Assembly (NCBI GenBank): GCA_002842735.1 | Contig: PHEB01000001.1 | Location: forward strand, 124,001-188,000 | Reading direction: 5' to 3' | DNA length: 64,000 nucleotides | From: Alphaproteobacteria bacterium HGW-Alphaproteobacteria-7 | Lineage (GTDB): Bacteria; Pseudomonadota; Alphaproteobacteria; Sphingomonadales; Sphingomonadaceae | Shown here: positions 37,331 to 56,128 of the stretch, one piece after another | Position numbering within the stretch: position 1 is the stretch's first letter | Layout of the letters: each line of letters begins with the position of its first letter | Notes under the pieces: generated by a model | What the model was told of the DNA's origin: nothing | The model's database searches: none | The model's input: the letters and a program-made list of their open reading frames with translations, nothing else | Translations under genes and position numbers: made by a program

Positions 37331-37397
37331 GTGAGTCCCCGTGCAGACGGGGATCTCGTTCGGAACTGCGGGAGGCTCCCGCCTGCGCGGGAGCTCA
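37331..37397. repeat. GTGAG..CTCAC double-hairpin palindromic repeat, copy A (intergenic, recR-def)
   Basis: gtgagtccccgtgcagacggggatctcgttcggaactgcgggaggctcccgcctgcgcgggagctcac. Confidence 0.93.
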
Positions 37398-37403
37398 CAA
37401 TTG

Positions 37404-38012: not shown

Positions 38013-38107
38013 CCCGCTCGCCCTGAGCTTGTCGAAGGGCTGTTCTGCTCTTTATGGGACAGGCTAGAAGAAAGTGCGGGGCTTCGACAAGCTCAGCCTG
38101 AACGGGG
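38013..38107. repeat. inverted repeat CCTGAGCTTGTCGAAGG..CTTCGACAAGCTCAG between recR and fmt
   Basis: cccgctcgccctgagcttgtcgaaggg ... cggggcttcgacaagctcagcctgaacgggg. Confidence 0.9.
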
Positions 38108-38115
38108 TTTGTGAG

Positions 38116-39075
38116 TTGCGCATCATTTTCATGGGAACACCCGATTTCGCGGTTCCAGCGCTGCAAGCCCTGAACGCGGCGGGGCATGATATTGCCTGCG
38201 TCTATACCCAGCCGCCGCGCGCTGCGGGCCGGGGCAAGCAGCTGCGCGCATCGCCGGTGCAGGTTGCGGCTGAGGCCTTGGGGCTGATGGTGCGATCGCC
38301 GGTGTCACTGAAGAACGCCGAGGAGCAGGCCGCGTTTGCCGCGCTGAACGCCGATGTCGCGGTGGTGGCCGCTTACGGTTTGATCCTGCCGCAGGCGGTG
38401 CTGGATGCCGCTGCGCATGGCTGCCTCAACATCCACGCCAGCCTGCTGCCGCGCTGGCGCGGGGCGGCGCCGATCCACCGCGCGGTGATGGCGGGCGATG
38501 CGGAGACCGGCGTTACGATCATGCAGATGGAAGCCGGGCTGGATACCGGGCCGATGCTGCACAAGGTGCGCGTGCCCGTGGGGCGCAAGACCACCGGCGG
38601 ACTGACCGAAGAACTCGCCGCCTTGGGGGCCAAGGCGATGGTTGCCGTGCTGGCCGATCTTACGGCTTTCGCGCCAGAGGTGCAGGACGACAGCGCCGCC
38701 ATCTACGCGCCCAAGATCGACAAGGCCGAGGCGAAGATCGACTGGGCCGAGCCTGCCGCAGTGATCGAACGCAAGGTGCGCGCCCTGGCCCCGTTTCCCG
38801 GCGCGTGGTTTGCGTTGGAGGGCGAGCGGGTGAAGTTGCTGCTGGCTGAAACGGTGGTGAGTCCTCGCGCAGGCGGGGACCTCGTGCCAGACGCGGGAGG
38901 CTCCCGCCTGCGCGGGAGTTCGCAAATTGGCACGGTGCTGGACGATAATTTCGCCATCGCCTGCGGGGACGGCGCGCTACGCCCGCTAAAGCTCCAGCGC
39001 GCGGGCAAGCCGGCCATGTCGCGCGAAGACTTCCTGCGTGGGCGGCCGGTGGCGGCGGGCACGGTGCTGGTATGA
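38116..39075 (+). CDS. fmt: methionyl-tRNA formyltransferase (TTG start) containing an in-frame palindromic repeat
   Basis: [40 protein letters not shown]...[24 protein letters not shown]; repeat encodes [24 protein letters not shown]. Confidence 0.95.
38857..38924 (+). repeat. GTGAG..-type double-hairpin palindromic repeat, copy B (in frame inside fmt)
   Basis: gtgagtcctcgcgcaggcggggacctcgtgccagacgcgggaggctcccgcctgcgcgggagttcgc aligns to copy A along its length. Confidence 0.93.
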
Positions 39076-53850: not shown

Positions 53851-54846
53851 TCAAGGAGCCGAGCGTGGCGGACACGCTTCGGCCAGCAGTAGCAGGAATT
53901 GCCCTGCGCTATCGGCCCACCGCGCGCGCGGTTCCCACCCGGCGCTCGCCAACAGCATCTGGGCCGAACGGCGGGTGAACTTGTGGCTGTTTTCAGTGTG
54001 GATGCTTTCCCCGCTGCGAAGCGTAAAGCGCTGCCCGCTGATCGTAAACGTCATGTCAGCGGCGGCGATCAAGTGCATTTCGATCCGCGCAAATGTGTCG
54101 TTCCAACGCGCTTCGTGGCGGAATTGGTCGACCGGAATATCGCCCGCAAGCTCCCGGTTGATCCGGGTCAGCAGGTTGCGGTTGAACGCTGCCGTGACAC
54201 CCGCCGCATCATCATAGGCGGCCTTCAACAGCGCCTCGTCCTTGACCAGATCCATGCCGATCAACAGCAGCGCGCCTTCACCCAGCGTTTCGCGCATCGA
54301 ACGCAGCAGATCAGTGGCAGTGCGCGCGATCATGTTGCCGATGGTCGATCCGGGGAAAAAGCCGAGCTTGGGCAGGTCTGCAACCGCGCCGGGCAATTCA
54401 ACCCGGCGCATGAAATCAGCCTCAACCGGGTAAACCGGAAGGCCCGGAAACTTAGCCGCCAGATCAGCCGCCGCCGCGCGCAGAAAATCGCCTGCAATAT
54501 CGAGCGGAACATAGGCCGATGGCGCAATCGCGGATAATAGCAGCGGAGTCTTGACCGAAGAGCCAGAGCCAAACTCCACCACCGCCCGCCCCGGCCCGAT
54601 CAGATCGGCCATCGCGCCCGCGCGCTCGGTCAGGATTTCGGTTTCGGCGCGGGTCGGGTAATATTCGGGCTGCTGGGTGATATCTTCAAACAGTTGCGAT
54701 CCCGCATCATCATAGAACCAGCGCGCCGGGATTGCTTTTTGCGGTTCGGCCAGCCCCGCCAACACGTCTGCCCGGAAGGCGCGATCAACCCCGGCGGAAT
54801 CGCGCTCAACCAGCTTCAGCCCTGTATTCGTCGTCATCTCAAACAT
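53851..54846 (-). CDS. egtD: L-histidine N(alpha)-methyltransferase
   Basis: LAGLAEPQKAIPARWFYDDAGSQLFEDITQQPEYYPTRAETEIL...VEFGSGSSVKTPLLL. Confidence 0.95.
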   Translation of the reverse strand: MFEMTTNTGLKLVERDSAGVDRAFRADVLAGLAEPQKAIPARWFYDDAGSQLFEDITQQPEYYPTRAETEILTERAGAMADLIGPGRAVVEFGSGSSVKTPLLLSAIAPSAYVPLDIAGDFLRAAAADLAAKFPGLPVYPVEADFMRRVELPGAVADLPKLGFFPGSTIGNMIARTATDLLRSMRETLGEGALLLIGMDLVKDEALLKAAYDDAAGVTAAFNRNLLTRINRELAGDIPVDQFRHEARWNDTFARIEMHLIAAADMTFTISGQRFTLRSGESIHTENSHKFTRRSAQMLLASAGWEPRARWADSAGQFLLLLAEACPPRSAP

Positions 54847-56128
54847 CCTTGGCCAGCCGCAGGCCGGTGAATTGCCAGCGCTGCTGGGGATAGAAGAAAT
54901 TGCGGTAGGACGCGCGCGAATGACCGCGCACCGTGGCGCAGCTTGCTCCGCGCAGCACCACCTGCCCGCTCATGAATTTGCCGTTATATTCGCCAACTGC
55001 TCCTTCGGCGATGCGAAAGCCGGGATAGGGTAGATAAGCTGAGCGGGTGAACTGCCAGCAATCGCCGAACAGGTGCTGCCCACCCTGCGGGAGTGGCGGC
55101 GCGGCGCCATCAAGCTGATTGCCAGCGGCGGGATCATGGCTGGTCGCTATCGCCTCCCACTCGAACTCGGTCGGCAGGCGGTGCCCCGCCCAAGTGGCAA
55201 AGGCATCCGCTTCATAATACGAGACATGGCTAACCGGCGCATTGGTATCGCGCGGCTGCCAGCCTTGGTGGGTGAAATGCTGATCGTCACGCCAATACAG
55301 CGGTGCGCCTATGTCTTGCACCTGCACCCAGCCCCAGCCATCAGACAGCCACAGCCGCGCATCGCGATAGCCGCCGTCAGCGATGAAGCCATCCCATTCG
55401 CCATTGGTCACCAAGCGGTCAGCCAGCGCAAACGGTTCGATCAACACGCGGTGACGCGGGCCTTCATTGTCGAAGGCGAAGCCACCACCTTCGTGGCCGA
55501 CAAGCGCGATCCCGCCGGGGTGCTGGTGCCAGCCAAGTGATGCTTGTGCGTTTTCCCGCAAATCGGAAGTGTGCTTTGCCTGCCTGAGATCCCCGCCTTC
55601 GCGGGGACTCACAACGGCTTCATACATCGCCGGGCCAAGCGGATTCTGGAACAGCGCGTGTTTGATATCGGTCAGCAACAATTCGATGTGCTGTTGTTCA
55701 TGCGCAACGCCCAATGCGATCAGGCCGCTGAGCGCCGGATCATCCAGCAGCGGCGTCATCGCGTCATTCACCGCTGCGCGCCATTCCTGCACCTCGGCCA
55801 GCGTCGGGCGTGACAGCATCCCACGCTGCCCCCGCGCCATCCGCGCGCCTTCCGCTTCGTAATAGGAATTGAACAGGAACGGCCAGTCTTCGCGCCACAG
55901 CCGATAACCCGGCAAATAATCGCGTAGCAGGAACGTTTCCCAGAACCACGTCGTATGCGCGAGGTGCCACTTGGCAGGAGAGGCATCCTCCATCGATTGC
56001 AGGCTGGCATCGGCATCGCTCAGCGGGCGAACCAGCGCCTCGGTCAGCGCGCGGGTGGCGCGAAAACTATCACCGAATGTTGCCGCATCTGCGCCGCTGA
56101 TGGGATTTTGCCGTTCGCCACGAGGCAC
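54839..56128 (-). CDS. egtB: ergothioneine biosynthesis protein EgtB with in-frame repeat insertion
   Basis: SPAKWHLAHTTWFWETFLL...HEQQHIELLLTDIKHALFQNP...GHRLPTEFEWEA; insert AVVSPREGGDLRQAKHTSDLRENAQ. Confidence 0.94.
   Translation of the reverse strand: MPRGERQNPISGADAATFGDSFRATRALTEALVRPLSDADASLQSMEDASPAKWHLAHTTWFWETFLLRDYLPGYRLWREDWPFLFNSYYEAEGARMARGQRGMLSRPTLAEVQEWRAAVNDAMTPLLDDPALSGLIALGVAHEQQHIELLLTDIKHALFQNPLGPAMYEAVVSPREGGDLRQAKHTSDLRENAQASLGWHQHPGGIALVGHEGGGFAFDNEGPRHRVLIEPFALADRLVTNGEWDGFIADGGYRDARLWLSDGWGWVQVQDIGAPLYWRDDQHFTHQGWQPRDTNAPVSHVSYYEADAFATWAGHRLPTEFEWEAIATSHDPAAGNQLDGAAPPLPQGGQHLFGDCWQFTRSAYLPYPGFRIAEGAVGEYNGKFMSGQVVLRGASCATVRGHSRASYRNFFYPQQRWQFTGLRLAKDV
55540..55612 (-). 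repeat. GTGAG..-type palindromic repeat, copy C (first hairpin conserved; in frame inside egtB)
   Basis: gtgagtccccgcgaaggcggggatctcaggcaggcaaagcacacttccgatttgcgggaaaacgcac; second half diverged. Confidence 0.75.

Follow-up and report, generated by a model that had tools for sequence, protein, structure and literature searches.

The fmt gene of Alphaproteobacteria bacterium HGW-Alphaproteobacteria-7 contains one copy of a mobile palindromic REP dimer, which lies in the reading frame of methionyl-tRNA formyltransferase (Fmt). It is very probable that the dimer entered fmt in an ancestor, was tolerated as a protein loop, and persists as near-neutral selfish DNA at a position that has been used more than once. 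The copy was found in a window of 64,000 nucleotides from a 2.66-Mb draft genome of 39 contigs belonging to the Erythrobacter/Porphyrobacter group. The nearest named Fmt records are those of Erythrobacter and Porphyrobacter, with two alphaproteobacterial MAGs nearer still. The features of the window that define the element are as follows.

38116..39075, + strand: fmt, methionyl-tRNA formyltransferase coding sequence bearing the insert (TTG start; TIGR00460, 265 bits; matches to Fmt structures in the PDB)
38857..38924, + strand: REP dimer with the layout of a REPIN, in frame in fmt, encoding about 23 residues (alignment, fold, genome-wide family)
38857..38883, + strand: left REP of the fmt dimer, with tag GTGA, stem GTCCTCGC/GCGGGGAC, loop GCAG, and tail CTC (sequence, family statistics)
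38897..38923, − strand: right, inverted REP of the fmt dimer, with tag GCGA, stem ACTCCCGC/GCGGGAGC, loop GCAG, and tail CTC (sequence, family statistics)
37331..37398, + strand: another dimer of this subfamily, in the recR–def intergenic region (alignment to the fmt copy)

The insert in fmt and its predicted structure

The two dimers of the window are 84% identical when aligned, which bears out the claim of the sequence-only reading that about 68 bp of fmt are a near-copy of the recR–def intergenic repeat. The 24-base core of the repeat occurs exactly twice in the window, against a chance expectation of 0.01. The insert folds with a free energy of −52.3 kcal/mol (z = −6.1 relative to shuffled sequences), and a search of Rfam gave no match to it. 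The reading frame of fmt is open across the insert, with normal Fmt residues on both sides, and the frame that is used contains no stop codon within the element. Because the frame is stop-free, the insert should be translated as an extra Fmt loop.

The linker that extends from VKLLLAE to the residue before GTVLDD has 15 residues in most of 74 aligned Fmt sequences, 33 in this genome, and 33–36 in the carriers of a full dimer. The in-frame insertion proposed earlier stands, with the correction that about four linker codons were replaced, so that the net gain relative to insert-free relatives is 57 bases, or 19 codons. The 15-residue linker of the non-carriers excludes ordinary variation within the Fmt family as the source of the additional residues.

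The AlphaFold model of Fmt has a mean pLDDT of 91.1; however, most of the insert (residues 248–255 and 259–264) scores below 50. The insert follows the strand formed by residues 234–244 and occupies a low-confidence loop between two β strands of the C-terminal domain. The rest of the protein is predicted to retain its fold. The closest solved structures are those of Fmt from P. aeruginosa and E. coli.

Two further repeats were observed in the window. The recR–fmt intergenic region contains another inverted repeat, CCCTGAGCTTGTCGAAGGGC ... GGGGCTTCGACAAGCTCAGCCTGAACGG (38018–38108), of the same type as a repeat in the IleS loop of the congener G026. A tandem pair of a 59-base unit with 97% identity is located at positions 333–450.

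The repeat family and its copies in genes

A genome-wide scan identified about 90 half-sites, nearly all of which form inverted pairs. At least 43 complete dimers of the fmt-type subfamily are present in the genome; they are 60–83 bases long, with a length of 78 bases in 16 of them. The half-site consists of a tag G(T/C)G(A/C), an 8-bp stem, a 4-base loop, and a CTC tail, as determined from 86 halves. Their tags are GTGA (35), GCGA (27), GTGC (19), GCGC (4), and GAGC (1), and the most frequent loops are GCAG (50) and GAAG (23). The CTC tail is present in 69 of the 86, and on average 7.3 of the 8 stem positions are paired. The repeat is a short stem-loop that recurs many times, and it is organized in inverted pairs with a short spacer, the two features by which REP dimers and REPINs are recognized. 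The loops on both arms of a dimer match in 23 of 43 cases, which is only a mild excess over the 17.5 obtained by shuffling.

A strict half-site pattern has 42 matches in this genome, 41 in the congener G013, 26 in G001, and 0–10 in the other congeners tried; the reversed control pattern has none. The recR–def site lacks a copy of the repeat in four relatives (L022, L023, L026, and L028); therefore, the repeat family has moved later than the insertion into fmt. A single strict half-site was found in the genome G007, which is close to this one in both Fmt and MutS. The repeats may have been lost from G007 or never gained by it.

The REP dimer would be a non-autonomous mobile palindrome, moved in trans by some enzyme. 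Neither a RAYT, with or without flanking REPs, nor another REP-linked transposase was found in the genome, which counts against the explanation preferred here. The sole full Y1_Tnp protein was rejected as a RAYT mobilizer; this IS200-type TnpA has CCGACTTCAGTCGG hairpins of its own, and no REP lies near it. An IS200-type Y1 transposase is present in this genome, G007, and G013, and was not detected in 21 other congeners searched; this distribution was not accepted as a link between the transposase and the repeats because nothing joins them.

The window served to train the codon model with which genes around the repeat copies were called; the calls were then translated and assigned by family searches. 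About nine dimers are located in frame in conserved enzymes: Fmt, MutS, IleS, GlyS, QueE, MtaB, the E1-beta subunit of PDH, a biotin carboxylase of the propionyl-CoA type, and a protein resembling 23S rRNA methyltransferases. The motif is therefore shared by about eight conserved coding sequences in addition to fmt. In SufS and ArgS the copies lie close to the N-terminus, and the position of the true start is not certain there. A half copy of the repeat lies within the window, in the gene encoding ergothioneine synthase.

54839..56128, − strand: egtB, ergothioneine synthase coding sequence with a single in-frame REP (TIGR03440, 525 bits)
55586..55612, − strand: single REP, a half copy, in frame in egtB, encoding the peptide VSPREGGDL (repeat scan and translation)

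One insertion was disruptive: the rlmN gene is split by a repeat copy (G000:C37:10661-11778; L196, L238, and L239). Parts 4–150 and 167–350 of the rlmN family model flank the repeat in different frames, about 16 model positions are lost, and no other rlmN was found in the genome. Only 10 of the 43 dimers are in genes, far fewer than expected from an assumed coding share of 88% (binomial probability 2e-22). This scarcity fits selection removing most genic insertions. Our reading of the translations of 13 genic copies, which include those in rlmN, SufS, ArgS, and egtB, showed that the frame of the left half that encodes PR(A/E)GGDL-like peptides is used in 11 and the next frame in 2. The third frame, which is open and arginine-rich, is used by none of the 13. 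A short open reading frame over a copy in L188 was not counted as a gene. Besides its dimer, the glyS locus (L181) contains a second stretch resembling another REP family and a third repeat-like stretch, near VTPAQAGVSGRSARTPEMPASAGMT and PPRDGEGDRPQGGGG.

The insert in MutS is at one place in this genome, G001, and G013, is degraded in G026, and is absent from G007, G028, G022, G031, G024, and G036. G007 is the closest relative in MutS, yet it lacks the insert that the less closely related G001 and G013 possess; this counts against the explanation preferred here.

Reuse of the loop and the origin of the insert

The match to fmt is about 900 bases long in nearly all of 61 congener genomes, whereas it has 957 bases in this genome, 954 in G013, and 915 in G007. 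Alignment shows a full dimer in this genome and G013. The copy in the relative L083 is cut in its right half, and G007 (L084) retains a single-hairpin remnant; both are still in frame. Relatives lack these residues in Fmt, and the motif recurs in other coding sequences; thus neither of the two observations named in the sequence-only reading as grounds for refuting it was made. In the Fmt tree, G013 is placed apart from the three other related carriers, although grouping them is not rejected (p = 0.12). The insert may therefore have been moved by recombination, which weighs against the preferred explanation.

A wider survey of Fmt drew 400 genomes from the family and listed roughly the 147 best matches. 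Among the matches listed, a palindromic pair of a different sequence occupies the Fmt loop in at least five other genera (G160, G085, G322, G315, and G367), and Fmt of Sphingomonas glacialis also has a palindromic repeat there. In 73 aligned Fmt sequences, all insertions of five or more residues are in the C-terminal-domain loop that contains the insert. The carrier state requires eight changes on the Fmt tree, three of which are forced by well-supported branches, and placement of all carriers in one clade is rejected (AU test, p = 0.0013). The comparison set aside L210, L212, and L213, whose Fmt genes are longer but show no clear repeat, and L211, whose linker has 15 residues. Changes on the tree alone cannot separate gains from losses; however, separate gains in different genera are favoured by the sequence comparison because the repeat sequences and their junctions differ.

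A similar situation was found in IleS, in the loop between QWFVPMD and TLR (L228–L236). Among nine congeners with readable sequence, one position in this loop is occupied by palindromic inserts that belong to at least four repeat families (types CCCCAGCGAAAGCTGGGG, CTCCCCTCCCC, CTCGACTTCGCTCGA, and CTTCGACAAGCTCAG), and two congeners have none. It appears somewhat likely that a few loops of core enzymes of translation and repair, those of the Fmt C-terminal domain and IleS and perhaps that of MutS, are repeated landing sites of unrelated palindromes across sphingomonad genera. Selfish palindromes would then be a steady source of new loops at fixed places.

According to the preferred explanation, the dimer would have entered fmt before this species and its close relatives diverged, taking the place of about four codons in the linker that joins two C-terminal-domain strands. 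The stop-free element would be translated as a flexible, hydrophilic, and disordered loop that Fmt tolerates. The insert would persist as near-neutral selfish DNA and decay by in-frame deletions and substitutions. Insertions would be retained only where the protein fold tolerates them, and other REP families may have been retained at the Fmt loop because few sites in Fmt can bear 18–25 extra residues with little harm.

The strongest competitor is an insertion into the Fmt loop that took place once, early in the history of the whole family; most lineages would have lost it exactly, and in the others resident REPs would have rewritten it through gene conversion. Carriers mostly use the same frames of the repeat, and the dimers of G013 and this genome show parallel differences in their arms, a pattern that conversion by resident copies could generate. 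However, the eight state changes on the tree would demand many exact losses, and the junctions are unlike between genera. Most non-carriers have a linker of exactly 15 residues, whereas G007, in which the insert is nearly lost, keeps a scar. An ancient origin is therefore considered unlikely.

It is still less probable that the peptide was recruited for a function of Fmt, such as contact with tRNA or regulation, and has been kept by selection. The insert has outlasted the divergence of several species. In the comparison of this genome with G013, its dS of 0.40 exceeds its dN of 0.124; dN is equal in the rest of fmt, where dS is 0.69, but the values for the insert come from only 24 codons and are weak evidence. 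Against recruitment, L083 and G007 have shortened versions of the peptide, the loop contains different peptides in other genera, and nearly all congeners lack an insert.

Selection for the RNA hairpin rather than the peptide, through an effect on the speed of fmt translation or on mRNA stability, would account for the very stable fold of the insert; however, any REP dimer folds well wherever it is placed. Furthermore, L083 has lost the hairpin and G007 has only a shrunken one, yet both preserve the frame, which makes this alternative highly improbable. Repeats can confuse the assembly of a draft in 39 contigs, but an assembly artefact or a pseudogene can be practically dismissed: three other assemblies have inserts in this position, and fmt remains open all the way across, flanked by residues normal for Fmt. 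Entry of a mobile REP dimer followed by its near-neutral persistence thus remains the best explanation of the fmt insert.

Relation to known palindromic repeats

Elements of the kind described here are already known. The literature searched, covered at the level of main texts, yielded no report of one loop of Fmt or IleS being reused by different repeat families, and a search for fmt together with palindromes returned nothing relevant.

The GTAG and CGTC superfamilies of REPs were defined by Di Nocera et al. 2013 (PMC3733652), who report that the prevailing form in alphaproteobacteria is the CGTC dimer, which has no dedicated transposase. The same paper reports in-frame REPs in genes of many bacteria, including those for tRNA synthetases in E. 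litoralis and S. alaskensis, which belong to the same order as the present genome, and REPs at about one site in the recB genes of Xanthomonas. The Fmt site is not named in its main text. The fmt-type repeat shares with CGTC dimers the 8-bp stem, 4-base loop, 3-base tail, and head-to-head arrangement, within the range given for the superfamily (8–9-bp stem, 4–5-base loop), as well as the in-frame position of some copies and the lack of a dedicated transposase. By contrast, its tag is G(T/C)G(A/C) and its tail CTC, whereas those of CGTC dimers are CGTC and CCA. None of the 86 halves has CGTC, TGTC, or CCTC next to the stem, and none has a GTAG tag.

The parallel with Rickettsia palindromic elements (RPEs) drawn in the sequence-only reading is appropriate, since both consist of short palindromes that lie in frame within numerous unrelated genes and are tolerated there (described for RPEs by Ogata et al. 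2000, 2002, cited in PMC3733652 and PMC10969869); here the hosts are about nine unrelated genes. As in RPEs, the fmt insert is predicted to occupy a loop and leave the protein fold intact. The occurrence outside Rickettsiales, also put forward there, is not new, because it was reported in 2013 and included sphingomonads (PMC3733652). The fmt-type repeat differs from RPEs in sequence, as had been claimed, in host, and in length, with about 150 bases given in a review against about 68–83 here. The claimed difference in sequence needs the qualification that RPE-4 and RPE-6 are placed in the CGTC superfamily in PMC3733652; the architecture of this superfamily, but not its tag, is common to the fmt-type repeat. 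Protein expression has been shown for some RPE-containing proteins, as cited in that paper, whereas the fmt-type insert is known from sequence.

In Pseudomonas REPINs, as in the fmt-type repeat, two inverted REPs and a spacer form the unit, and singlets may arise by decay (Bertels and Rainey 2011, PMC3116915). Unlike REPINs, the fmt-type repeat has no RAYT found in the genome and no GTAG tag. About one quarter of the dimers described here are in genes, a far larger share than in P. fluorescens SBW25, where 14 of 1067 16-mers overlap genes (PMC3116915). An insertion seen in an alignment of core proteins can derive from a repeat and can have arisen independently more than once, which calls for caution in using such insertions as phylogenetic markers. 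The full, shrunken, and empty states of the fmt site in close relatives constitute a natural experiment on the cost of insertion, its decay, and the reuse of loops. The fmt insert indicates that mobile palindromes in frame in core genes are routine in ordinary free-living bacteria rather than a peculiarity of Rickettsia.
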